IMG/VR virus record: IMGVR_UViG_3300038696_000123
Coordinates: 1-58,178 of that record
Length of the DNA stretch: 58,178 bases
Strand: one strand, 5' to 3'
From: a virus
How positions within the stretch are numbered: the stretch's first letter is position 1; each line of letters starts with the position of its first letter. The translations under genes and the position numbers were made by a program. Shown one piece after another: positions 11,763-28,741 of this stretch. The notes under the pieces are model-generated. The model saw only the letters and a list, made by a program, of their open reading frames with translations. It was not told the origin of the DNA and did no database searches.

Positions 11763-14113
11763 CAGAACGGCTCCTTGGGCTCCTCAGCCTCATCCGCGGG
11801 CCACTGGTAGGGTCCTCCAAAGCGGTCATCCCAGTGGGCCCGGGCTGCCTCCAACCCGGTGAGCTCATAGAACCACGCCTTGGACTTCCTGACCCGCTCG
11901 TGGCCGTACTGGTCCTGCTCGCTGACCTCTGCCCAGCGCTGGAAGGTCCGGGGGTACTGCCCAGGGAGCACCCGCTTCAGGAACTTCCCGAGGGCCGTGG
12001 GGGACGCCCGGCGCATGATCTTTTGCCGCTCCGCATAGAGTAGATAGTCACGCTGGAGGTCCGCCTTCATGACCTCGCCCTGCCAACCATCCGCCTCAGA
12101 GAGGGTCCGCCCCTCCATCAGCTTCTCAAACCACCAGTTTTCCTCCGGCCCGAGGCTCAACAGCTTCTGCTCCTGGAGGGCCTCTGTCTTTGGGAACTGG
12201 CGCACATCGAAGCCGGTCAGGTCGCGGGTCATCAGCAGGTGGAGGAGGGCCTCACGGCCCCCGCTGTCCAGCTCCGCCCGGATGGCCTTGAAATAGTCCT
12301 TGTTTTGCATCTGCCTGTCGCCCACGTCCAGGACAAAGAAGCGCCGCTCATCGGTCCCGGCGGGCACCACCCAGTCGCTGTTCGATGCCATCATCAGGTG
12401 GACGTAGTTGGGGGCAGCCTCGGCATCCACACCCTTGCCCTCAATCATGATGGTCTCCTCTGTGACCATGGTCTTGAGGATCGCCTCGTGCTTCTTGTCC
12501 CCAGCATAGAACGCCTCATCACCGAACAGCACAACGCAGTCCCGGAGGTGGGCGTTGAAGCTCCCCACGAGGTGCTTGGAGTCACTGACCTGGAGGAAGT
12601 GGCGGCCCCAGAGGGACCCAAACGCCTTCACAGCGAAGGACTTGCCGGTGCCCATCCGGCCCCGCATGACGATGGCGACCTCACCGGGGCTGTCTGGCTT
12701 CTGGACGGCCCGGGCCATCCAATTCATGTAGTATTCAAAGTGCTGCTCATTCCCGGCGCACACGTTGTCGTGGACGTGCTTCAGGAACAGCTCGCAGGAG
12801 CCCGGCTTGGCCTCGCACGCAAAGCCCCTCCAGAGGTTGAAGGCGTCCGGGACCTCCCGCCCGGGGGCGAACATGATTGTGCGGTACTGACGCCTGTTCT
12901 GGTTCATCAGCCACCACTTGCCCAGGGGCATCTTGACGTCATGCCCGTCCTTGTCCTGTCCCACGACAACCTGGAGGTGCATGTAGCGGTTGCGGAAGTC
13001 CTCAAAGCTCTGGCGGCTGATCCGCTCCCGCTGTAGGGCATAGTCCATGACCTCGCTGATCACCCGGCACCGGCCCCCTATGTCCTCAATCACTGCGTGG
13101 TCCTCGTTGAGCTTGCGCAACCAGGGGTCAATCGCCTCCTCGTGGGCCCTCTGTATCTGTCGGGCAACGTACTGCTGGGGCCGGGGCTGCTCCAGGACGT
13201 GGGCGCTGATCCCGTAGTCAGGGTCAAGCACGCACGCTGCGATCATGTCGTCATCCACCCCCGCCCGTATCATCTCGCACAGGACCGCAAACAGGACCTC
13301 TGAGCGGCTGGGGTACTTGGTTGGGTCATCCGGGTCGTCACCGTTGACGATGAGCATCTTGGTCCGGGGCGTCACCTCCGGGGGCAGATCGTCAAGGCTC
13401 TCCAGCCTCGGGATGTTCCCTGACAGCTTGACCTGCGGCCCTCCCCCACCGCCAGGTCCGGTGGTCTGGACGCGGGGGGCCGGGGTGAACTCCTTGAGGC
13501 TGTAGATGCGGGACCAGTCAGCGTCCACCACCCGGGCGAGCGCCTCCACCCGGCCCTTCTTGCGCTTCTTCTCCCCTGGGACGTTGACAGTGCCCGGGAG
13601 GCGCATGATGCGGTCGATGTTGTGACAGGCGTCCGCCTGGAGGAGGACCTCAACCTGGAGGTTGTACGCCTCCAGCACAGCAGCCTTCTCCTCGCTGCCG
13701 TCTGTGCGCTGCTCCTCGTCAAGCAGCCAGAAGCCCTGGAAGCCCCCGCCGCTGTCGATGATGACGGTGGGCGGTGGCGTGAACTCCCGCAGCATCTTTT
13801 CAGCCCGCTCCCGCTCGCTGTCCAGGGGCTCGCCCGGCCTCGGGTCCACGTCCACGTGTAGCGCAGCCATCCCCCTGATCTCTGTCTTCTTGGGCTTTGA
13901 CTTCGCAGCCTTGATGACTGGATTGACAGTGAAGTAGATGTTCTGCTTGCCCTGCCGCTCCTCCAGCCAGTCCCCCATTGACTTCTGCTCCCCGGCCTGG
14001 AAGGTGACTGTGGTTGTCCGCCCCCCGTCAACCATGATCGAAGTCAGGACCCAGGGACCCTCGGGGGCCCAAGCCTGGAGGAACTGAATTGCCTCTGATG
14101 TGTTTCCCTTCAA
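11762..14113 (-). CDS. Primase-helicase (AEP primase + SF3 helicase)
   Basis: Encodes 783 residues and probably starts and drives phage DNA replication. The N-terminal half has archaeo-eukaryotic primase features: HVDVD at 86-90, the SGGGFQGFWLL motif near 121-131 and RLPGTVNVPG near 171-180. The C-terminal half is a superfamily 3 helicase: Walker A GRMGTGKS (485-492), Walker B VVLFGDE (527-533), sensor LMMASNSDWVVP (about 573-584) and Arg finger DERRFF (588-593). The gene overlaps the adenine methylase gene by 4 bp. Similar D5-type proteins occur in many phages and plasmids. Confidence 0.9.
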   Translation of the reverse strand: MKGNTSEAIQFLQAWAPEGPWVLTSIMVDGGRTTTVTFQAGEQKSMGDWLEERQGKQNIYFTVNPVIKAAKSKPKKTEIRGMAALHVDVDPRPGEPLDSERERAEKMLREFTPPPTVIIDSGGGFQGFWLLDEEQRTDGSEEKAAVLEAYNLQVEVLLQADACHNIDRIMRLPGTVNVPGEKKRKKGRVEALARVVDADWSRIYSLKEFTPAPRVQTTGPGGGGGPQVKLSGNIPRLESLDDLPPEVTPRTKMLIVNGDDPDDPTKYPSRSEVLFAVLCEMIRAGVDDDMIAACVLDPDYGISAHVLEQPRPQQYVARQIQRAHEEAIDPWLRKLNEDHAVIEDIGGRCRVISEVMDYALQRERISRQSFEDFRNRYMHLQVVVGQDKDGHDVKMPLGKWWLMNQNRRQYRTIMFAPGREVPDAFNLWRGFACEAKPGSCELFLKHVHDNVCAGNEQHFEYYMNWMARAVQKPDSPGEVAIVMRGRMGTGKSFAVKAFGSLWGRHFLQVSDSKHLVGSFNAHLRDCVVLFGDEAFYAGDKKHEAILKTMVTEETIMIEGKGVDAEAAPNYVHLMMASNSDWVVPAGTDERRFFVLDVGDRQMQNKDYFKAIRAELDSGGREALLHLLMTRDLTGFDVRQFPKTEALQEQKLLSLGPEENWWFEKLMEGRTLSEADGWQGEVMKADLQRDYLLYAERQKIMRRASPTALGKFLKRVLPGQYPRTFQRWAEVSEQDQYGHERVRKSKAWFYELTGLEAARAHWDDRFGGPYQWPADEAEEPKEPF

Positions 14114-14814
14114 GTTAAGTCCCCCACTGCATACAATTTTTCAACGGTTTTCTGTTCCCCGCCTTCACGTTTGCGGAGGTCTGTCCGGCTCGGGAACTCA
14201 GCGTGAACCTCCGCCCAGTCCGGTCCCGTGAACTCACTCACGAAGATGAGCGCCCCGTTGTCAGCACCCCGCCGTACCCAATCCCAGAACGCCGCGCTGT
14301 CGAAGGGTCCAGTGGCGTATCCGTTGGTCACGCCCGCATATGGTGGGTCACAGTAGAACACCTGACCTGACTTGGGTTTATAGTCACCGTAAGCGGCGTG
14401 GCAGAAGTTGACGTTGCGGGTTGCCTCCACTTTCCTCAGGAGCGCGTTCCGCCCCTGGAGCGCGTTCCGCCCCTGGAGCGCGAAGTTGCGCCCACTTTCA
14501 CGCGCATAACCTCCCCACCATTTTCCCCCGAACGACATACAATGTCCGCAAAATGCCTCCATTTTGGTCCCGGTCCCTTTGGCAGCATTGTAATCAAATT
14601 CACTAACGTGGGTTGGTGGTTCCCAACCGCACCGCACAGCCGTGATCAGCTTGATCAGGGGCTCTGACGCATCACTAGCGACATCGGGTTGGAGTGACAC
14701 AGTGGCGCTGAGTCCCCCGCAGAAGGGTTCAATGAGCCTCCTGCCCCGGACATGGGGAAGTATAGACCTAGCCAGCTGTTTTGCGATCCTGTGTTTGCCA
14801 CCTACATATCTCAT
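14110..14814 (-). CDS. dam: D12-class DNA adenine methyltransferase
   Basis: Transfers a methyl group from SAM to N6 of adenine in DNA. The 234-residue product has the N-terminal YVGGKHRIA, motif I EPFCGG (29-34) and motif IV DPPY (156-159), the Dam family layout. It is slightly shorter than E. coli Dam. An internal 18-bp tandem duplication gives a repeated LQGRNA segment near residues 113-124. The target sequence cannot be read from the gene. It probably adds a second layer of restriction protection to the hypermodified DNA. Confidence 0.88.
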   Translation of the reverse strand: MRYVGGKHRIAKQLARSILPHVRGRRLIEPFCGGLSATVSLQPDVASDASEPLIKLITAVRCGWEPPTHVSEFDYNAAKGTGTKMEAFCGHCMSFGGKWWGGYARESGRNFALQGRNALQGRNALLRKVEATRNVNFCHAAYGDYKPKSGQVFYCDPPYAGVTNGYATGPFDSAAFWDWVRRGADNGALIFVSEFTGPDWAEVHAEFPSRTDLRKREGGEQKTVEKLYAVGDLT

Positions 14815-19277: not shown

Positions 19278-19729
19278 TTGTTGTCCCCCTGGTATCCGAA
19301 CGGCTCCGCCTGCCCGGTCGGGTCAGGCCGTGGCGTCCGGGCGTCCTCCGCCATGACGGCGATGAGGCTGATTGCCTCCTCCAACCACTCATTCTCCCGG
19401 GTCCAGCCGTCCACAAGGGAGATGATGTGGGCCTCTGTAGCCGGTACATTTGCTGAGTCAAGGAAGCGCCGGAGCCGGTCGTCATCCGCCAGCTCCCGCT
19501 CCCCCGCCGGGACCAGCCCCGGGATGATGCCCGCGACCTTCTGGAGCTTGACCAGGTAGCTGGCTGCCTTCTCCAGGTCCTGGGCTCCGCCCTTTTGACG
19601 CCACCGGCTCACGTACTTGGTCCCGGCACTCTCCAGGTAGCCTAGGGCCGTCTCCGCACTCCAATCCCAATGCTGGTATGCCGCCGCATAGTGGGTTCCA
19701 CCCACCTGCTGTACTGCTGTCGTGTTCAT
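19274..19729 (-). CDS. DUF3310 protein
   Basis: Encodes 151 residues. The N-terminal GGTHYAAAYQHWDW, then YLESAGTKYVSRWRQKGG and DLEKAASYLVKLQ are the DUF3310 signature, a family often annotated as phage nucleotide-kinase-associated (T7 gp1.7-like). A phosphotransfer role in nucleotide metabolism is plausible but not shown by motifs. Coupled to both neighbours by 4-bp overlaps. Confidence 0.75.
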   Translation of the reverse strand: MNTTAVQQVGGTHYAAAYQHWDWSAETALGYLESAGTKYVSRWRQKGGAQDLEKAASYLVKLQKVAGIIPGLVPAGERELADDDRLRRFLDSANVPATEAHIISLVDGWTRENEWLEEAISLIAVMAEDARTPRPDPTGQAEPFGYQGDNK

Positions 19730-20253
19730 TCAATCGCTCCCATCCATTTCCAGCCCTCTGCGCGGAAGTCCTGGATGAAGTCCCAGGCCTCCGGCGGGAG
19801 GGTGCCGTCAGCATTCTTCTTGTCAAATGAGGCGTCCATCTGGCGCTTCATCTCGGTAGCGGCCTGGTTGCCCATGGCCTCCTCATCCCAGCACCACAGC
19901 CAGAGGTCAAGGCTGTCTGCTGCCCGGAGCTTGGGCCAGTCCTCCCGGGACAGGGCGTGCTCATCCGGGAGCCGCAGGGAGCGCATCACGCGCCGGTCCT
20001 CCCGCTCCAGGTTCTCCCCGATCCCCAGCCGGGTGATGGACGGTGAGGGGATGTCCCCGGTGCTCACCTCGGGGATGTCGTGGAACAGGGCGAAGTCCAG
20101 CAGGTCCCGGTCATCTGGCCAGAGGAGCCGGAGGATCACGCAGACGCCCCAGGAGTGTTGACTGTTGAGGTACGGCTCTGCCTTGGGCCACTGGTGACAC
20201 CTTGCGATCCGTCCGGCCTGGCGGACGTGTCTGATGCGGTCAGTCCTGTTCAT
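19726..20253 (-). CDS. HD-domain nucleotide phosphohydrolase (YfbR-like)
   Basis: Encodes 175 residues. Metal-binding pattern NSQHSWGV ... FALFHDIPEVSTGDIP ... AADSLD is the H...HD...D set of HD-domain enzymes such as the 5'-deoxynucleotidase YfbR. Probable dNMP dephosphorylation. Together with the MazG-like enzyme it could clear dTMP, favouring replacement of thymidine. It overlaps the hydroxymethylase gene by 14 bp. Confidence 0.78.
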   Translation of the reverse strand: MNRTDRIRHVRQAGRIARCHQWPKAEPYLNSQHSWGVCVILRLLWPDDRDLLDFALFHDIPEVSTGDIPSPSITRLGIGENLEREDRRVMRSLRLPDEHALSREDWPKLRAADSLDLWLWCWDEEAMGNQAATEMKRQMDASFDKKNADGTLPPEAWDFIQDFRAEGWKWMGAIE

Positions 20254-21334
20254 CGGCTGCCTCCCGGCGCTTGCGCTCTGCGGCAGCCTCGCGGTTGTCG
20301 AGCCAGAGCTCAGCCCCCAGCCTCCAGTCAAGGTCCCCGGGCATCTGACCCAACACCTCCCGGGCTGCTGCTGCCCCGTCCTGCTTGTAGGCGCGGTGGG
20401 TCATCACCATCGGGCACGCGACCTTGCGCAGGAAGCGGGACCGGATGCCGATGCGGGCCGGGTCGTCAATGAACATCTCCACGTCATCCGTGAACTCCTC
20501 CAGCCGGAAGGAGGGGTCAAACATCGGTGATGTCGTGGCTGTCCCGGAGGTGTAGGGGTCATCCCGGAGGCTGACCAGGCCCACGCCCCCGTCATAGGCG
20601 TCATTGTCGGTCCCCCACGGCCACTCCTCCCCGGCCTTCCCCATTGTGGAGAGGTATCCATGAAAGTTGTTGCTCACCTGGTAGTACCGCCCAACGGGGA
20701 CGCCAACGCCAGCGGCGATGACCTCCTGGAGGGCGCTGAAGTGTACCGCGTTTGCCCCGTAGGCACCCCAGACCATGTCGTTGGAGCGGTTGTACACCGT
20801 GAGGTTGAGCCGCCCATCCGTGCCCACAGAGGGCAGGGCAGAGAGGTTGCAGGGGATGTCCCTGCCCCCGTGGTCCGCCGCGTCCTGGTCCACGTCCACG
20901 TCATACATCTGGATGACCACGCGCCGGTCGTTGGGGTCAGCCTTCAGCCGCCGGATGGCCCAGGCGAGCTGGTCACGGTCGTCATCCCCGTTGACGTCAA
21001 AGTGCCGCCGCCAGCGGTGGCCGTAGGCCCCGGGCTGGGTGACGCCCCCGTCATCGCTGAAGTTGGCCATGTTCTTCACAAACGGGAGGAGCGGGGCGAG
21101 GTCGTTGCGCCCTGCCAACATCCACAGGCTCTCAAAGAGGTGGAAGAAGGGGTTGGCATCCCGCCCCGGGTGTAGCATGACGCGCTCCTCTGGGCGCTCA
21201 TAGACGGTCGTGACCGGGTGGGGGGCGAGGAGGACCGGGCCGTTGCGGCTCTCCCTCCCCACCCCGTCCCTGCGCAGGAGCGAGGCCCCCGCAAACAGGG
21301 CATAGTTGACGTTGCGTGCGCCGATGGTGATCAT
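20240..21334 (-). CDS. Thymidylate-synthase-family dUMP hydroxymethylase
   Basis: Encodes 364 residues. TS family residues: ANPFFHLFESLWMLAG near 60-75, RR at 137-138, catalytic C162 in DIPCN, R183-S-N-D186 and N195 in GAYGANAVHFS. The usual PCH is PCN here. T4 dCMP hydroxymethylase has Asp where TS has the pyrimidine-specifying Asn; an Asn here fits dUMP rather than dCMP. I infer 5-hydroxymethyl-dUMP production, because the adjacent genes act on 5-hmdU DNA; plain thymidylate synthase is the alternative. ATG overlaps the upstream stop. Confidence 0.8.
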   Translation of the reverse strand: MITIGARNVNYALFAGASLLRRDGVGRESRNGPVLLAPHPVTTVYERPEERVMLHPGRDANPFFHLFESLWMLAGRNDLAPLLPFVKNMANFSDDGGVTQPGAYGHRWRRHFDVNGDDDRDQLAWAIRRLKADPNDRRVVIQMYDVDVDQDAADHGGRDIPCNLSALPSVGTDGRLNLTVYNRSNDMVWGAYGANAVHFSALQEVIAAGVGVPVGRYYQVSNNFHGYLSTMGKAGEEWPWGTDNDAYDGGVGLVSLRDDPYTSGTATTSPMFDPSFRLEEFTDDVEMFIDDPARIGIRSRFLRKVACPMVMTHRAYKQDGAAAAREVLGQMPGDLDWRLGAELWLDNREAAAERKRREAADEQD

Positions 21335-21504
21335 GTGCGGACCTTCCCAGACATTATTGCGGTGGTGCCCCGGAGGAGGACCTTGACGGGGAGCCGGGCC
21401 TGGGCCCGGAGGAACTCCATGCGCCTCTGGAACTCCGCCCAGACACGCGCCTCCTCCCGGACGGCCTCAGCGGCCTCCGGGCTCATTTCTTCTTCAACCT
21501 TCAC
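21331..21504 (-). CDS. Small charged protein in modification operon
   Basis: A 57-residue frame starting at a GTG that overlaps the upstream stop (GTGA) and ending in a TGA that overlaps the hydroxymethylase ATG. Starts acidic (VKVEEEMSPEAAEAVREEA) and ends basic. Probably helical. Double coupling supports translation. Function unknown. Confidence 0.6.
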   Translation of the reverse strand: MKVEEEMSPEAAEAVREEARVWAEFQRRMEFLRAQARLPVKVLLRGTTAIMSGKVRT

Positions 21505-22187
21505 GCCACGGTCCCCCCTGCCACTTCCTCGGGCTGGGCCTCACTCGGGGGCAGCCCGAGCTTGGCGTTGAGCTCCGCCCGGGGGATGGCCGGGAGGATA
21601 GCCTTGCGCTCACCATGGTCGATGTAGTGCTTGGCGAACTCCTCAACCTCGGGCCAGACTTCAATGAGCTTGGGAACAGTCGTGACGCTCGCCATCGCAG
21701 TCGATGTCGTCCGGGAGGCGCGGCTGATCTCTGTCTCCAGGTCCTCCTGGGCACCCTTGATTGCCGTGAACTCCTCGGCAATCGGGGTACCTGCCTCATA
21801 CTGCTTCAGGCACTGGCCCCGGAGCTTGGCCGGGAACGGGAGGTGGGGACGGTTGAAGGAGCCCGGCACAGAGCCCTCCAGGTCGTCAACCTCCTTTGCC
21901 CCAGTCTCCCGGAGGGTGGTGGTAAGGCAACCGTTGCCCATGGAGCCGTTGAAGCAGAGGCGCTCCATGTCCCCGCCCACGTACACTTTGAGGTCGTCAC
22001 CACCCGGGAGCCAGCCCGGCGGGATGGCCCGGATTGCCTCCAGGTGGGTTGCCAGGGCGTCCTCATAGACGCGCACGGCAAACTCAGAGCAGCGCTGGAC
22101 GTGTGCCTGGGCACGCTCCTGGAACGCCCTCTGGAGGAGCTTCTTCAGCAGCGCCTCACGGATTGATTTGGTCAGTCGGGATGCCAT
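21501..22187 (-). CDS. Nmad5-like putative modification protein
   Basis: Encodes 228 residues, mainly helical. The N-terminus (SRLTKSIREALLKKLLQRAF) resembles the start of the family named Nmad5, a putative nucleotide-modification-associated domain seen beside base-modification genes in phages. The assignment rests on that pattern and on position between the hydroxymethylase and the kinase/transferase genes. ATG at 22187 has AAAGGAG upstream with good spacing. Biochemistry unknown. Confidence 0.55.
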   Translation of the reverse strand: MASRLTKSIREALLKKLLQRAFQERAQAHVQRCSEFAVRVYEDALATHLEAIRAIPPGWLPGGDDLKVYVGGDMERLCFNGSMGNGCLTTTLRETGAKEVDDLEGSVPGSFNRPHLPFPAKLRGQCLKQYEAGTPIAEEFTAIKGAQEDLETEISRASRTTSTAMASVTTVPKLIEVWPEVEEFAKHYIDHGERKAILPAIPRAELNAKLGLPPSEAQPEEVAGGTVA

Positions 22188-22203
22188 GATGTTTCTCCTT
22201 TTC

Positions 22204-23214
22204 TCAGCTTCCACGGCCCGGCACGTACATCGCCCGGGGCCTTCCCTCCCCGGAGCGAGCCCGGAGCAGTTTGTCAGTCTCGCACAGCGCGTTCTGGATG
22301 TCGGACAGCTCAATGCGGGGGACCCAGGGAGCCCTCCAGCGGTCCTGCTCCCCCCACAGGGTGAGCATCTCCTCCAGCCCCTGGGCCTGTTTCAGGGGGT
22401 AGTCCACGGGACGCCCGGAGAGGCGGTTGAGGCCCCGGCGGGAGCCCGGCCCGAGGGCTGCCCACGTGTTGATGTCCGGGGCGTCCCGGAGGTAGCGGCT
22501 GTGGCGCAGGTCCACCACCACCTGGTACGCCATGAACGGCCCCCAGCCGATGAAATGCTTGTCCTGGAACATCTCCCAGACCTCCTGCATGGAGAGGGTC
22601 TGCCCGGGGGCAACGTCCCAGTCCAATTCAGCTTCCCAGAGACGCCCAAGGACAATCCGGGCGATGTACTGCTGCTTGGTCCAGCTGTACCACTCCGCCT
22701 TGGGGTTGCTCTCCGCCCGGATCATGTAGGCCCCGGTGTAGACCTTGGCCCCGGTCGCGCTCCAGTGGTCCAGGGCGTTGCCCAGGGCCTCGGGGGAGAA
22801 GGCGAAGTGCGGCAGGCCCTGTCCCTCGTTGTTGGGCCAGGCGTTGAAGTCGCACTTGACCTCGCCCCGGTTCATGAGCCACTGGAGGGTTGGCGGCCAG
22901 TTGATGTACCGGGCGATGGCCAGCATCATCCAGAGGTCCGGGTGGTCTGCGTAGGGGACCTGGATGTTGCGGTGGATCCACTGCGTCACCCGGTCCAGCT
23001 CCCGGAACACGTTGCAGAAGCGGTACTTCTGGAGCACCGGGTCATCGGTCAACGGGCCGTCCGGGCGGGCAGCAAAGTGGTTGGGGTCGCTCTCCTCCAG
23101 GTCGCATTCCTGCGGCACCCAGAGGTCCGCCGGGTCCGCCCCGGCCCGAAGCTCCTTGCGGATGTAGATGGCGTGGCGCTCGTTCACAAAACTCCAGAAA
23201 GGTTCAATGTTCAT
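22204..23214 (-). CDS. DNA base hypermodification protein (HMUDK helical domain type)
   Basis: Encodes 336 residues. FWSFVNERHAIYIRKELRAG, then DDPVLQKYRFCNVFRELDRV and WIHRNIQV, is the signature of the family described as the 5-hmdU DNA kinase helical domain, relative of the alpha-glutamyl/putrescinyl thymine pyrophosphorylases. Members act on 5-hmdU DNA or its pyrophosphorylated form. The ATG at 23214 overlaps the P-loop kinase stop, so kinase and helical protein are probably made together and may form one enzyme split over two genes. Confidence 0.82.
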   Translation of the reverse strand: MNIEPFWSFVNERHAIYIRKELRAGADPADLWVPQECDLEESDPNHFAARPDGPLTDDPVLQKYRFCNVFRELDRVTQWIHRNIQVPYADHPDLWMMLAIARYINWPPTLQWLMNRGEVKCDFNAWPNNEGQGLPHFAFSPEALGNALDHWSATGAKVYTGAYMIRAESNPKAEWYSWTKQQYIARIVLGRLWEAELDWDVAPGQTLSMQEVWEMFQDKHFIGWGPFMAYQVVVDLRHSRYLRDAPDINTWAALGPGSRRGLNRLSGRPVDYPLKQAQGLEEMLTLWGEQDRWRAPWVPRIELSDIQNALCETDKLLRARSGEGRPRAMYVPGRGS

Positions 23215-23822
23215 CACGCTCCCTCCATCTCGTCAATCGTGTCCCAGAGGTCCTCAACGGCCCGGTCGTGGCGGAGCAGGACTGTGGGGATGCCTGCGAA
23301 CTCCATCTTGGAGCGGGTCGCCTTGATGGACTTGATCTTGTCGGCAACCAGGTCCTCCTTGATCTCCCGCTCGCCCCGGTCGGTGGCACGCTGGCGCTCC
23401 CGGATGCGCTCCAGGCACAGCTCCAGCGGGGTGTCGAGGTAGGCCACGAGGACGCGGTGCGCACCCTCGCTCTGGACGGCCTTGAAGAACTCCAGCCAGG
23501 AGCCTGCCACCGTGGAGGCCAAGACGCCCTCGCAGATGACGTGTCGGGGCGAGCCGGGCAGCCGGGTTGCGGCCATGACGGCCTGCTGCTGTAGGTCAAA
23601 CGTCTTGATGGTGTCCATCCCGCCGCAGCCGGTGCTGTACTTGCCCACGGCCAGGTATCCGCCCGGGGTCCCCCAGCCCTCAACAGAGCTGCGCCGCCCC
23701 GGGTCGCGCTTGGTGGGGTTGTCGTACCAGACCAGGTCAACCGGCTGGGCCTGCGGCGTTATGAGCTCCCGGGCCAGCGTGGTCTTGCCGCTGCCGTTGG
23801 TCCCCCTGATGTTGATAATCAT
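23214..23822 (-). CDS. P-loop 5-hmdU DNA kinase candidate
   Basis: Encodes 202 residues. Walker A GTNGSGKT at 7-14, a CEGV segment at the second strand, and RIRERQRATDRG as a lid with several Arg place it in the nucleotide-kinase-like P-loop class. Because the next gene encodes an HMUDK-type helical domain, I infer that it phosphorylates the hydroxymethyl group of 5-hmdU within DNA, the activating step for later substitution. A free-nucleotide (5-hmdUMP) kinase is the alternative. Confidence 0.78.
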   Translation of the reverse strand: MIINIRGTNGSGKTTLARELITPQAQPVDLVWYDNPTKRDPGRRSSVEGWGTPGGYLAVGKYSTGCGGMDTIKTFDLQQQAVMAATRLPGSPRHVICEGVLASTVAGSWLEFFKAVQSEGAHRVLVAYLDTPLELCLERIRERQRATDRGEREIKEDLVADKIKSIKATRSKMEFAGIPTVLLRHDRAVEDLWDTIDEMEGA

Positions 23823-23992
23823 GTCGGCTCCTCCAGGTGTTCTGCGTTGAAGGCGTCCCGGAACTCAGCCCAGTCAGCCTCGGACATCACCAGGGTGCCG
23901 ATGCCGGCAAACGTCTGGCGGGGGTTGGGGGCGCTGAACACGCGCACGTGGTAGTGCGCCCCCTTCTTGACGTATCGCGTGCGGAACACCAT
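23819..23992 (-). CDS. Small basic protein in modification operon
   Basis: A 57-residue frame: strands RTRYVKKGAHYHVRVFSAP and QTFAGIGTLVMS, then an acidic helix (EADWAEFRDAFNAEHL). Start and stop overlap both neighbours (TGATG, ATGA). Unrecognised small alpha/beta protein. Confidence 0.6.
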   Translation of the reverse strand: MVFRTRYVKKGAHYHVRVFSAPNPRQTFAGIGTLVMSEADWAEFRDAFNAEHLEEPT

Positions 23993-24198
23993 CAGCCCAC
24001 CCTCTCCCGGGTCATGCGTGTGAGGTCCATGCGGCGCTCATTCCAGTCCATCCAGGGCCTGATTCGGTCCTTCCAATGGGTGTGGGTCTCATACTCCTTC
24101 CAGGCTGCTGTTGACGAGTTCAACGCAGCCTTGAAGCGCTCCTCCGGTGTCTGGGGAGGGGTTTCGGGCTTGCGCCGGAACCATCCGAAAAGTCTCAT
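23992..24198 (-). CDS. Small phage protein, unknown (68 aa)
   Basis: Encodes 68 residues with a basic N-terminus (RLFGWFRRKPE) and helices rich in Trp and Arg. It leads the operon that carries the kinase and hydroxymethylase, with AGAAATGGAG before its ATG and a promoter at 24234-24262. Function unknown. Confidence 0.55.
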   Translation of the reverse strand: MRLFGWFRRKPETPPQTPEERFKAALNSSTAAWKEYETHTHWKDRIRPWMDWNERRMDLTRMTRERVG

Positions 24199-24233
24199 CT
24201 TGGTGCTCCATTTCTGTGAGTGTCCGCCCCCGG

Positions 24234-24262
24234 AGCCTATCCCCGGGGACGGGGCCGGTCAA
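24234..24262 (-). promoter_or_regulatory. Predicted promoter of kinase/hydroxymethylase operon
   Basis: Minus strand -35 TTGACC (24257-24262), 17-bp spacer CCCCGGGG-containing, -10 TAGGCT (24234-24239). The -35 overlaps the stop of the transferase gene. Confidence 0.6.
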
Positions 24263-25131
24263 GCGGCAGGCGTTGGGTAGCAGCTGAGCAGCTCATGTCC
24301 GCCCCACAGCTCCAGCTCCCGCCGATGGTGGGTGGTGTCCTTCCCGATCCAGTAGTGGCCGTTGCGGGCTGACTTCCACTTGCACAGGACAGTCTCAACC
24401 TCCTGGACGTTCACCTTGCGGTCCCCAGCCGGTGGGGCGTCCTGCCCCGCGTATGCGCTCAGGAGGTGCTCGGTGACGCCCTGTGGGGAGAGGTCCCCGA
24501 GGAGCTGCCCAGCCATCTCTGCGCCCTTCCTCGGGTCGCGGTACATGGAGGTGATCGTGGTGGGGAAGTCAACCGGGACGCCCAACACACGGTCAAGCAT
24601 GTCCGCTGCCTTGAAGGCAATCCACGGCCCGAACTGCGGCCAGCTGGTGACCTCCAGCTCAACGGCCCGGAGGTTGAGCTGCCCCGGGAGGTCCTCCAGG
24701 CTCATCACTGCGTCCTCGGGGCGGGGGAAGCGCTCCCGGAGCCAGGCCACGCTGTCAACGCACTTCTGGCCGCGCCAGTGGCGACGCTCTGCCGCCCTGG
24801 GCCACCGCTCCGCCGGGGCAACCTTCAAGGCTGCTGGGCCGGTCGCGTCCCCGTTCTCTGCCGCCACGTCAAGCCAGTCCCAGAAGCTCACGGCGCTCGT
24901 GCGGGAGGCGAGGAAGGCGCTGGCCCCCACGCTGTAGCAGCACCAGTATGCGAGCATGTAACGCCGCACCCAGTCCCGGCGCTCAGTCTGGTTCTGTCCC
25001 CCGGCCTGGATGTAGCGCCAGAGGCCGGTGTACAGGGGGTCGTGGTCGTGGGTCCTGATGAGCTCTCGCCCCCAGGCCACAGGGTCATCCAAAAGGTTCT
25101 CACCAGGTTTCATCGGGCATTCCTCCGCCAT
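24259..25131 (-). CDS. Amino-acid:DNA transferase candidate (HhH type)
   Basis: Encodes 290 residues from the ATG at 25131, nine bases after the AGAAATGGAG leader; ATGs at 25140 and 25113 are alternatives. The segment LEVTSWPQFGPWIAFKAADM with DRVLGVPVDF resembles the helix-hairpin-helix region of the alpha-glutamyl/putrescinyl thymine pyrophosphorylase (AADT) family, relatives of base-excision glycosylases. Such enzymes displace pyrophosphate from activated 5-hmdU DNA with an amino acid. The amino acid cannot be read from sequence; glycine is expected if the system is M6-like. Confidence 0.72.
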   Translation of the reverse strand: MAEECPMKPGENLLDDPVAWGRELIRTHDHDPLYTGLWRYIQAGGQNQTERRDWVRRYMLAYWCCYSVGASAFLASRTSAVSFWDWLDVAAENGDATGPAALKVAPAERWPRAAERRHWRGQKCVDSVAWLRERFPRPEDAVMSLEDLPGQLNLRAVELEVTSWPQFGPWIAFKAADMLDRVLGVPVDFPTTITSMYRDPRKGAEMAGQLLGDLSPQGVTEHLLSAYAGQDAPPAGDRKVNVQEVETVLCKWKSARNGHYWIGKDTTHHRRELELWGGHELLSCYPTPAA

Positions 25132-25315
25132 CTTTTTCATCTCCATTTCTAAGGCAACCGGCGCAGGTGTGTCCCCAGCCGTCTGTGATCTTGTCAAACT
25201 TGTAACCCTCAGAAGCGGCTGCCTCCCGGGCCTCGTCAAAGTCCTCTCCCTCAACGTAATCACTGCAGTGGTCGCAGAGGATGATGACGGCCCCGTGTTC
25301 CCTTTCAATTGCCAT
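25100..25315 (-). CDS. Small zinc-ribbon-like protein
   Basis: Encodes 71 residues with two Cys pairs, CDHC near residue 12-15 and CAGC near 52-55, spaced like a zinc ribbon. It overlaps the start of the transferase gene by 32 bp in another frame and contains that gene's leader. A role as a modification-complex partner is possible but unsupported. Confidence 0.6.
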   Translation of the reverse strand: MAIEREHGAVIILCDHCSDYVEGEDFDEAREAAASEGYKFDKITDGWGHTCAGCLRNGDEKDGGGMPDETW

Positions 25316-25316
25316 C

Positions 25317-25670
25317 TCAATCCTCCTGTGAAGCTGCCCAGGAGAGGAACGCCAGCAGGGCCGGGTTGTCTCCAAGGAGCGTGATTGTCCAGGACGCGAA
25401 GAAGCTCACCATGAACTCCTCTGGGTACTGGTCGTCATCGCCACCAGGGAGCGCGTGGAGCGCCCCGATGTCGAATGCGGCGTGGAGGCACTCGTGCCAC
25501 AGCGTTTCTGCTGCCTGGCGGTGCCCCCGGGTGGTGTCCACCTTGATCTCGTTGTTGACGTGGTCACACTCACCGTACTTGCGCTCAGCCGCCGCCACCT
25601 CGGGCTGCCAGACGGTCACCCGGTAGCGCTTCCAGCCCACCTTGACGTGCTTTGGGAACGGCGGCATCAT
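25317..25670 (-). CDS. HExxH metallopeptidase-like protein
   Basis: Encodes 117 residues. LWHECLHAAFD has the zincin motif H59-E60-x-x-H63, with EEF about 20 residues later as a possible third ligand. Short phage zincin-like proteins of this kind (SprT- or DUF-type) are known but uncharacterised. It has no signal peptide, so an intracellular target is likely. Located inside the hypermodification island, 1 bp upstream of the zinc-ribbon gene. Confidence 0.6.
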   Translation of the reverse strand: MMPPFPKHVKVGWKRYRVTVWQPEVAAAERKYGECDHVNNEIKVDTTRGHRQAAETLWHECLHAAFDIGALHALPGGDDDQYPEEFMVSFFASWTITLLGDNPALLAFLSWAASQED

Positions 25671-25834
25671 GTCGCCTCCTCGCAGCGGGCCCAGGAGCCG
25701 GGACCGGCCCTCTCAACCACTGCGTCCCCGATCTGCTGGACCCACTCGCAGCTCTCAAACTGCGGGAAGGCGCGGCTGGTCTCCTCGCAGCCCTGTGGGC
25801 CGCAGAGGAACAGGGTGAGGATGACGCCGCTCAT
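25667..25834 (-). CDS. Small Cys-rich peptide (55 aa)
   Basis: A 55-residue frame with a short hydrophobic N-terminus (MSGVILTLFLCGPQG) and four Cys. The ATG overlaps the radical SAM stop and the TGA overlaps the next ATG. LTLFLCG vaguely resembles a lipobox, but the helix before it is short. Function unknown. Confidence 0.5.
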   Translation of the reverse strand: MSGVILTLFLCGPQGCEETSRAFPQFESCEWVQQIGDAVVERAGPGSWARCEEAT

Positions 25835-27240
25835 GGATGAGCCTCCCGGTCATAAGCTGACTTCCTGAAGTCACTCATGCGGTTGGACTTGGCGGCCCCG
25901 AACAGGAGGGAGCCGCATGCCCCCCGCCCCTCCGGGTCCTCATCGCCGCAGGACAGGCAGCCCGAGGGCGGACACTCTGCGACCTCAGCAAACGGGACGG
26001 CAGTGTCCATCCGGGTGAACATGGGGACACGCTGGCCGTGGCACTGGTCCGCCGTCAGGAAGTCCGCCCCCACTGAGCGGGTCTTTTTGGAGTTGAGGGT
26101 GCCATCCTCTGCCCGGTCTGTATACATGTACTCATAGCAGGTCGCGTAGGTCATCCCGAGCTTGGTGGCGAGGGGCTGGAGCCTCCGGTGGGCCTCCAAG
26201 CGCCACTCCTCGTCAACGCACTTCTGGCCACCCATGTTGTCCACGAACAGGGACTCAAACACGCCGCCCCGGTTGTCCCCGAAGCGGGCCTTGATGCGCT
26301 CAACCATGGTCCCGGCCCAGGCATATCCGGCCTCCACGAACTTGACGATCACGTGGTTGTTCCCAACCTCCGCCAGCATGTGGAACAGCTGCTCAATCTC
26401 CTCAATGCTGGTCACGCCCGGGATGACCGGGTTGACCTGGATGGAGGTGTAGATGCCCTGACGCCGCAGCTCAGCCACCTCCTCAATGTGGTCCAGGAGG
26501 GGGAGTGCCCCTGGGCTGAGCTTCTTCCAATCCTCTGGGTCGCACGTGTTGAGGGACTTCTGGGCGTAGCTGTAACCGTTCCGCTTGAGGATGTCGAATG
26601 CCCAACCAGGGTAGCGCATCCGACTCAGGAAGAACACAGGCAGGCCCCGGTCGGTGAACGCCTCAGCGCCCCGCTGGGTGTTGTGGTACACGTCCTCAAG
26701 GGGGAGGAACGGGTCAGTGAAGCTGCTGAAGTATCCGGCGCTGGCTGTCTTCATCCGGTCCAGTGATTTGGCGACGTGGCCCCCGAAGTCGATGGGCACC
26801 GTGATGAGGCCGCTGCCCCGGTAGCCCTTGACCCCGCTGTTGATGTAGCAGAAGGCGCACCCCACGGTACAGAAGCCTCCATATGGTTCAGTGAGGATCG
26901 CGTCTGACATACAGGGGCGCTCCCGGGAGGTCCCGCCGGTTGGGCCCTTGCCCTGGTACCATCCCTGGAGGGGCTTGCCGTTCTCCAGCCGGAGGTGGGG
27001 CGCATACTTCTTGCCGTTGAAGCCGATGTACACCCGCACGTCTTTGTCCTTCTCCGCACCGCGCATCATCGCCACCCGGGCGGAGCGGGACTTGGCAACC
27101 ATCCCGGTCAGGGGGTCCTCGTGCTCCTCAATTGGCCCAAGGAACTCCCGCATGTCGGGGTCCGGGCGCATGAAGAACTTGTATGCCTCCTGCGCCGGTT
27201 CATTGCTCTGGCCCATCAGCCACTGTTCTTCAGATTGCAT
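25831..27240 (-). CDS. Radical SAM enzyme of base hypermodification
   Basis: Encodes 469 residues. The cluster motif CTVGCAFC (C124, C128, C131; CxxxCxxC) is preceded by PYGGF and followed by the usual TIM-barrel strands. A second Cys group near the C-terminus (CPPSGCLSCGDEDPEGRGAC) may bind an auxiliary iron-sulfur cluster. Radical SAM isomerases are reported in thymidine hypermodification pathways, where they rearrange the attached amino acid. The ATG at 27240 with GGAG seven bases upstream is preferred to upstream in-frame ATGs that fall inside the HNH gene. Confidence 0.82.
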   Translation of the reverse strand: MQSEEQWLMGQSNEPAQEAYKFFMRPDPDMREFLGPIEEHEDPLTGMVAKSRSARVAMMRGAEKDKDVRVYIGFNGKKYAPHLRLENGKPLQGWYQGKGPTGGTSRERPCMSDAILTEPYGGFCTVGCAFCYINSGVKGYRGSGLITVPIDFGGHVAKSLDRMKTASAGYFSSFTDPFLPLEDVYHNTQRGAEAFTDRGLPVFFLSRMRYPGWAFDILKRNGYSYAQKSLNTCDPEDWKKLSPGALPLLDHIEEVAELRRQGIYTSIQVNPVIPGVTSIEEIEQLFHMLAEVGNNHVIVKFVEAGYAWAGTMVERIKARFGDNRGGVFESLFVDNMGGQKCVDEEWRLEAHRRLQPLATKLGMTYATCYEYMYTDRAEDGTLNSKKTRSVGADFLTADQCHGQRVPMFTRMDTAVPFAEVAECPPSGCLSCGDEDPEGRGACGSLLFGAAKSNRMSDFRKSAYDREAHP

Positions 27241-27667
27241 GTATTCTCTCCAATTCAATTGTTCCATCCCCGGGGTCGATGCGGGGCACTTCAAAGCCGA
27301 GGTTGCGGAGGGCCGCAGCCAGGGCAAACGGGTTGGTGGCATCCAGGGAGGTCGCCTGTAGGTGGCCCTGGACCTTGCGCCGCTGGTTCTCCTCTGCCGT
27401 CACCACCTCAATGTGATGGGGGCACACGCAGAGGGAGAAGCGGCAGGTGTGGTCGCGGTGGTGGCCGGTCGGGCAGGGCTCTCCCCCGAGGACCTCTGAA
27501 GAGAAGCGGTGGGCCCTCACCGTCCGCTTCCCGAGCCTGAATGAGCCATACCACTTCTTGTTGCCTTTCCCCCGGGAGCGTCCGCCGGTCCAGAACCAGC
27601 AGCCGTTGGGGAGCTTCTCAACGTACCCCATGAAGCGGTCGATGTCCTCTGGCCTCGCCCTCAGCAT
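27230..27667 (-). CDS. HNH homing endonuclease
   Basis: Encodes 145 residues. The N-terminal GCWFWTGG segment, then HHRDHTCRFSLCVCPHHIEVV and NQRR form an HNH zinc-finger nuclease like those inserted in phage genes. It separates the PLP enzyme and 27.7-27.9 kb gene from the radical SAM gene and overlaps the latter by 11 bp. Probably a mobile passenger in the modification island. Confidence 0.8.
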   Translation of the reverse strand: MLRARPEDIDRFMGYVEKLPNGCWFWTGGRSRGKGNKKWYGSFRLGKRTVRAHRFSSEVLGGEPCPTGHHRDHTCRFSLCVCPHHIEVVTAEENQRRKVQGHLQATSLDATNPFALAAALRNLGFEVPRIDPGDGTIELERIHAI

Positions 27668-27668
27668 C

Positions 27669-27914
27669 TCAGACCCTCACCGGGATGAGGAGCTTGAAGT
27701 CAGTGACCGGGAAGGTGTGCCAGCCAAGCCCCAACAACTCCCCTGTCAACGGGTGCCTCGGGCTGTCCTCCTCCGGGAGGAATGGGAAGTGGGCCTCAAG
27801 GGTCCTCTCCCCCAGCGGCAGGTCATAGGTGTCGTCAGGCCTGACGAGGGCTCGGGCTCCGGCAATCTCGGGCATCTGACCGCAGTACTCAGCATCATCC
27901 AACATCCCGCTCAC
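27669..27914 (-). CDS. Phage protein, unknown (81 aa)
   Basis: Starts either at a GTG (27914) that overlaps the PLP-gene stop or at an ATG three codons on (27905). The product is acidic and Pro-rich, with a beta-like C-terminus (WHTFPVTDFKLLIPVRV). No family recognised. It lies between the PLP enzyme and the HNH gene. Confidence 0.55.
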   Translation of the reverse strand: MSGMLDDAEYCGQMPEIAGARALVRPDDTYDLPLGERTLEAHFPFLPEEDSPRHPLTGELLGLGWHTFPVTDFKLLIPVRV

Positions 27915-28741
27915 CCTATGTTCCACATGAGGGCCTCGCCCCACTTGTCGCGTCCCTCCGCCATCCACCAGCGGAATGCCTTGAGGTCATAGTAGGCGTT
28001 GGCTGGCCAGGGAGGCGTCGGGCCGGGCCGGGCCTGGTCCTTGTAGTTGTAGCGCTCGTTGATGAACGTGATCCGGGTGTCCTCAAACGTGGTCAGCCCG
28101 GACATATTGAGCATGTACTTCAGGGTGGCCCCCTCGGGCTTGTTATACCCCTGATGGAGGATGAAGCGGGGCCTCAGCCCGGCCTCGTGGAAGCCGGTGA
28201 TGACGCCCGCAGCGATTGTCCCGGAGCTGATTGGGATGAACACCGGGTGGTGGGCACAGAAGGTCCGCAGGGCCGGGAGGGCCTCCAGCGTCCGCCCCAC
28301 CTCTGCCGCTGTCTCGGTGATCATCTCCGGGAGCTTCAGGGCGTTGGGCATCATGTAGCTGTCGTGAATCTTGGCGAGGTCCGCCTTGGCCTGGTGGAAC
28401 AGGTGCCAGCTTGGCCCCGCCGGGAGCGGCTGGAGCTGCGCTCCGAGCCCCATTGAGTGGGTCTGGGCGACGTGCGGCCCCGGGTCCTTCTTGTACCTTG
28501 GGTAGTAGTTGACGCACGCCTTGCCCAACAGGAGGCAGGCCTGGGCCACCGCGTGACCGGCCTGGGAGTGGTAGGTGTCCAGCACTCCAATCACCTCCTC
28601 CGGGCGGTCCCGGATGTGGGCGTACACGCCCCGCGTCTTGCTGAAGGGCGGGCCGGGCGGTGGACAGCTGAGGTCCTCCCGCTTAACCATCAGGCCGAAC
28701 TCGCTGAGGTGGTCCTGGACGGGGGTGTTGTTGACTAGCAT
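27911..28741 (-). CDS. Fold-type II PLP-dependent enzyme
   Basis: Encodes 276 residues. KREDLSCPPPGPPFSKTRG places a candidate PLP lysine at K35. TYHSQAGHAVAQA corresponds to the S.GNH.qa.A phosphate/substrate loop and ISSGTIAAGVITG to the Gly-rich PLP-phosphate loop of the tryptophan synthase beta/cysteine synthase superfamily. PLP-dependent decarboxylases act in published thymidine hypermodification pathways. I infer a comparable late step here, though decarboxylation by a type II fold would be unusual, so a lyase or exchange reaction is possible. Confidence 0.75.
   Translation of the reverse strand: MLVNNTPVQDHLSEFGLMVKREDLSCPPPGPPFSKTRGVYAHIRDRPEEVIGVLDTYHSQAGHAVAQACLLLGKACVNYYPRYKKDPGPHVAQTHSMGLGAQLQPLPAGPSWHLFHQAKADLAKIHDSYMMPNALKLPEMITETAAEVGRTLEALPALRTFCAHHPVFIPISSGTIAAGVITGFHEAGLRPRFILHQGYNKPEGATLKYMLNMSGLTTFEDTRITFINERYNYKDQARPGPTPPWPANAYYDLKAFRWWMAEGRDKWGEALMWNIG

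Follow-up and report, generated by a model that had tools for sequence, protein, structure and literature searches.

The minus-strand gene cluster at positions 20240-28741 of the window, which is the whole of a single 58,178-base virus record, is very probably an M6-type thymidine hypermodification island whose product would be 5-(2-aminoethyl)-dU (5-NedU). A sequence-only reading had proposed hypermodified thymidines from the genes in this span, and a profile search located every gene that it named, all on the minus strand and each where it had been placed. The pathway is already known, and the island is a well-preserved additional example of it. Gene identity, gene order, intact motifs and clade placement are established here, and the gene set goes far beyond chance expectation. 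The window has a G+C content of 64% and carries tailed-phage genes (tape measure, tail fibre J, major head and DNA polymerase A), together with an adenosylcobalamin-dependent ribonucleotide reductase and a dCTP deaminase. Three further genes match Pfam families named after cyanophage Pam3 (gp32, gp33 and gp34).

In comparison with the 5-NedU pathway of Pseudomonas phage M6 (gp51-gp58), the window presents the same enzyme set, including the radical SAM and PLP enzymes, and the Nmad5 and HD genes are common to both. Within one block, each of gp51-gp56, gp58 and gp59 of the M6 cluster finds its match, which upholds the hypermodified-thymidine proposal. Every protein compared with M6 has a match, at 32-63% identity: 63% for the radical SAM enzyme, 51% for the PLP enzyme, 50% for the helical kinase component, 44% for the thymidylate synthase (TS) family enzyme, 41% for both the amino acid:DNA transferase (ADDT) and the HD protein, and 32% for both the P-loop kinase component and Nmad5. 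The two arrangements differ in that the ADDT gene lies between the kinase and radical SAM genes in the window, whereas in M6 it is next to the PLP gene on its other side, and in that HNH-like, HExxH-motif and CxxC ORFs are inserted in the window. The same genes in the same order are found in Pam3, a phage of Pseudanabaena (Pam3_43-Pam3_54), with an HNH gene before the radical SAM gene and Nmad5 before the TS gene; the cluster proteins are 42-67% identical to those of the window. The Pam3 genome paper makes no mention of hypermodification.

Predicted hydroxymethylase, kinase and transferase

The predicted dUMP 5-hydroxymethylase of the TS family is encoded at 20240-21334 (PF00303, E-value 5.5e-18; phrog_5131, 1e-109). 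Both residues noted in the sequence-only reading are present: Cys162 lies within a PCN motif (20849-20851), and the retained Asn is Asn195 (20750-20752). The best PDB match is the CMP 5-hydroxymethylase MilA (1.8e-15), the first thymidylate synthase following at 8.5e-9. MilA has Asp where the window enzyme retains Asn, a difference that fits uracil as the substrate better than cytosine. The enzyme was aligned with those of hmdU phages (SPO1-like phi18 and ViI-like Maynard) and with two canonical phage thymidylate synthases. It shares with the SPO1-like and ViI-like enzymes a CN, not CH, after the active Cys and an RS(N/Q)D-xxWG motif, and none of them retains the Trp loop (IWD) of the canonical enzymes. 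Since the Trp of this loop shields the methylene intermediate of thymidylate synthase from water, its loss fits a hydroxymethylase. In the tree, the window enzyme groups with the SPO1-like, ViI-like and M6 enzymes, apart from the canonical synthases, with support of 100/100 on long branches. By these sequence criteria the protein is classed as a hydroxymethylase of the hmdU-phage type, not as a canonical thymidylate synthase.

The two Pfam families of the 5-hmdU DNA kinase sit in adjacent genes, as they do in M6. The helical component (22204-23214, homologue of M6 gp55) matches PF18723 (HMUDK_hel) at 9.1e-42 and is 67% identical to its Pam3 counterpart. The P-loop component (23214-23822, homologue of M6 gp54) matches PF18748 (HMUDK_HMUD1) at 2e-13 and has an intact Walker A motif, GTNGSGKT (23781-23804). 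The amino-acid transferase candidate, at 24259-25113, matches the ADDT profile PF18724 (2.9e-19). Thus neither the kinase nor the transferase belongs to an unrelated family, Pfam placing both in families specific to this pathway, although the P-loop component and ADDT are fairly distant from their M6 homologues.

The transferase also matches PDB entries 25qc, an amino acid:DNA transferase (2.6e-51), and 8z2m, named "Glycinyltransferase" (1.6e-46); across the alignment as printed, the 8z2m chain shows no difference from gp46 of Pseudomonas phage PaMx11. In the ADDT tree, the window protein is placed with M6, PaMx11 and the solved glycinyltransferases, apart from Delftia phage phiW-14 and Acinetobacter nACB2. 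The phiW-14 homologue, gp109, comes from a phage with putrescinylthymidine, is 27% identical, falls in a separate clade and has other motif residues. The ADDT QEVETVLCKWKS motif is located at 24370-24405, and the signature motifs match the glycine type. Sequence comparison therefore suggests that the protein is probably a glycinyltransferase.

The tailoring pair and the probable end product

The radical SAM enzyme (25831-27240) is recognized by phrog_9252 (9.6e-210), with a weak match to Pfam Radical_SAM (0.007), and is a homologue of M6 gp53, matched at 90% coverage. Its proposed CxxxCxxC motif is real, reading CTVGCAFC (26848-26871). The PLP-dependent fold type II enzyme (27911-28741), a probable decarboxylase, is homologous to M6 gp52 over its full length; it matches phrog_7093 (1.2e-67) and PALP (1.1e-7), the latter at 31.9 bits, just below the Pfam cut-off of 35. 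Its catalytic features, Lys35 (28637-28639) and an SSGT loop, are conserved in homologues. PDB sequence searches with the radical SAM enzyme, the helical kinase component and the PLP enzyme gave no match.

In a predicted structure, the barrel of the radical SAM enzyme is closest to that of spore photoproduct lyase, which also belongs to the radical SAM enzymes and has thymine in DNA as its target. In all 66 of the 66 long homologues ten cysteines are invariant, comprising the CxxxCxxC triad and seven more (C110, C368, C400, C423, C428, C431 and C442). Four of the seven form a C-x4-C-x2-C-x10-C cluster near the C-terminus (25912-25977), a region modelled at pLDDT under 50. Conservation of the extra cysteines suggests auxiliary Fe-S binding or chemistry. 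We tentatively propose, with slightly less than even confidence, that the family consists of DNA-acting isomerases with a core like that of spore photoproduct lyase and one or more auxiliary Fe-S clusters; clusters on the seven cysteines would, on the same proposal, make the mechanism differ from that of spore photoproduct lyase.

The tailoring module varies among phages that share the core. PaMx11 has the same TS, kinase, helical component and glycinyltransferase as the window, but combines them with a flavin enzyme and an acetyltransferase instead of radical SAM and PLP enzymes. In Rhizobium phage RHph_TM26, the core is likewise kept, a flavin oxidoreductase replaces the radical SAM enzyme, and a PLP match is absent. 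No flavin (FAD-dependent) enzyme of the PaMx11/TM26 type was found by tblastn or HMM search in the whole window. Given the presence of the radical SAM and PLP enzymes and the absence of the flavin enzyme, the module here is that of M6, which points to the M6 product.

The earlier suggestion of an amino-alkyl base such as 5-(2-aminoethyl)dU consequently stands as the best guess, the tailoring pair being the M6 pair. An unlikely alternative is that the pathway is the same up to the transferase and then yields a variant aminoalkyl-dU, either because another amino acid is used or because the radical SAM and PLP enzymes do something else. The ADDTs of the window and Pam3 type do form a clade separate from that of M6 and PaMx11, and the cysteine cluster of the radical SAM enzyme could be read in the same way; the cluster occurs in M6 as well, however, the signature motifs of the transferase are of the glycine type and unlike those of phiW-14, and both tailoring enzymes are close to those of M6. 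By analogy, 5-NedU as in M6 is most likely the end product.

Conservation of the island and its accessory genes

Islands 80-98% identical to this one are present in four other contigs (L006-L009). Among isolates, Rhizobium phages RHph_I65/I72 and RHph_TM26 have the closest TS (67%) and RHph_I65/I72 the closest radical SAM enzyme (78%). RHph_I72 has the same enzymes minus Nmad5, its PLP gene being located at the other end of the circular record. Co-occurrence was counted across 24 fetched loci in which the radical SAM gene is flanked by 7.5 kb or more on each side: ADDT is present in 24, the helical component and TS in 22 each, the kinase and the PLP enzyme in 21 each, Nmad5 in 7 and the flavin enzyme in 2. 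These counts are not independent, some phages or groups of close relatives being represented by more than one locus.

These data bear on two further explanations. It is very improbable that the island is decayed or silent, with virion DNA containing only thymidine or 5-hmdU: although the contig comes from a metagenome-type collection and the island is known here from its genes, all frames are intact, Shine-Dalgarno-like sequences precede most starts, catalytic motifs are conserved and islands 80-98% identical recur in the four other contigs. That ordinary nucleotide metabolism or repair genes are neighbors by chance, as the database labels thymidylate synthase, terminase small subunit, DNA repair photolyase and threonine dehydratase might imply, can be dismissed, since it is contradicted by the co-occurrence counts, by the recurrence of the set in M6, Pam3, Rhizobium phages, Bordetella phages and many contigs, and by the pathway-specific families of the kinase and transferase.

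Some related loci depart from the M6 arrangement. Three of them (L150, L159 and L160) combine the radical SAM enzyme and ADDT with a flavin-enzyme match and no PLP match, a combination unlike M6, PaMx11 and TM26 that possibly makes another modified base. Three jumbo-phage-sized contigs, L147 (266 kb), L148 (249 kb) and L162 (288 kb), carry an M6-type radical SAM enzyme at 54-58% identity and a divergent ADDT.

The Nmad5-like protein listed in the sequence-only reading is present at 21501-22187 (PF18757, 4e-28), yet it adds no weight to the pathway and is better regarded as an optional passenger or accessory. It is a cassette that islands otherwise much alike either have or lack: in L006 and L008, whose pathway proteins are 80-98% identical, 186 bases without Nmad5 separate the helical and TS genes. 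RHph_I65/I72 and RHph_TM26 also lack it. Conversely, of the 79 Nmad5 loci newly fetched, 70 are without any pathway gene in their flanks (fetched up to 6 kb), three Nanhaivirus phages have Nmad5 with no pathway gene within ~8 kb, and the gene is common in ordinary, unrelated prophages. A search of the PDB with the predicted Nmad5 structure (pLDDT 83) gave no match. A role as a chemical step or required component is thus unsupported, and Nmad5, which the pathway can lack and which is widespread elsewhere, should not be counted as evidence.

Starts were refined by Shine-Dalgarno-like sequences, giving 22187 for Nmad5, ~25113 (or 25131) for ADDT, ~27240 for the radical SAM enzyme and 28741 for the PLP enzyme. 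The island is adjoined by a YfbR-like HD 5'-deoxynucleotidase (19726-20253, minus strand; PF12917, 5.6e-10), which is a homologue of M6 gp59 and part of the block conserved in M6 and Pam3. The HNH-like ORF and two other proteins encoded in the span are probably outside the pathway. The first of these two, at 25317-25670 between ADDT and the radical SAM gene, has 117 amino acids and an HECLH (HExxH) motif; it has no Pfam match and no counterpart in Pam3, and occurs also in L006-L010 and L012. The second is a small ORF with two CxxC pairs (25100-25315) that overlaps the ADDT start. An hmdUMP kinase was not identified among the ORFs scanned, a set that takes in part of the small ORFs. Elsewhere in the window, a match to D12-class N6-adenine methyltransferases (14110-14814) makes a second DNA modification possible.

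Proposed pathway and its significance

The genes and the probable sequence in which they act have good support, whereas the individual reactions and the end product are deduced by comparison with M6 and related phages. The TS-family enzyme would produce 5-hydroxymethyl-dUMP, which would replace T in DNA during replication, and the neighboring HD nucleotidase would probably lower dTMP. The two-gene kinase would phosphorylate the hydroxymethyl group on DNA, probably preferring TG/TC. The remaining steps reportedly follow the order given by Lee et al. in 2018 and 2022, namely glycine transfer, radical SAM isomerization and PLP decarboxylation. Here, ADDT would put glycine in place of the phosphate, the radical SAM enzyme would rearrange the glycinyl group from a C-N to a C-C bond, and the PLP enzyme would decarboxylate the product to 5-NedU.

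The modified DNA would resist host restriction. M6 DNA, with its 5-NedU, is resistant to cleavage by roughly half of the Type II enzymes that were tested, and resistant sites are enriched in TG/TC (PMC6449724). By analogy, part of the thymine in the DNA of this phage probably carries an aminoethyl group that would block host restriction enzymes. Palindrome frequencies in the window served as an indirect gauge of restriction-site avoidance. Among 6-bp sites that contain T, depletion is milder when TG/TC is present (0.66) than when it is absent (0.34), a pattern broken by T-free 6-bp palindromes (0.49) and by 4-bp palindromes (0.62 with TG/TC, 1.08 for others).

The M6 pathway is now extended to an uncultured, Pam3-like phage lineage, whose divergent yet complete enzyme set should be of use in reconstitution work and in the search for residues that set substrate choice. 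Set against its relatives, the island shows which genes are core and which are optional. Nmad5 is dispensable, and the radical SAM and PLP pair on the one hand and the flavin enzyme on the other seem to be tailoring modules that can replace each other on a shared core.
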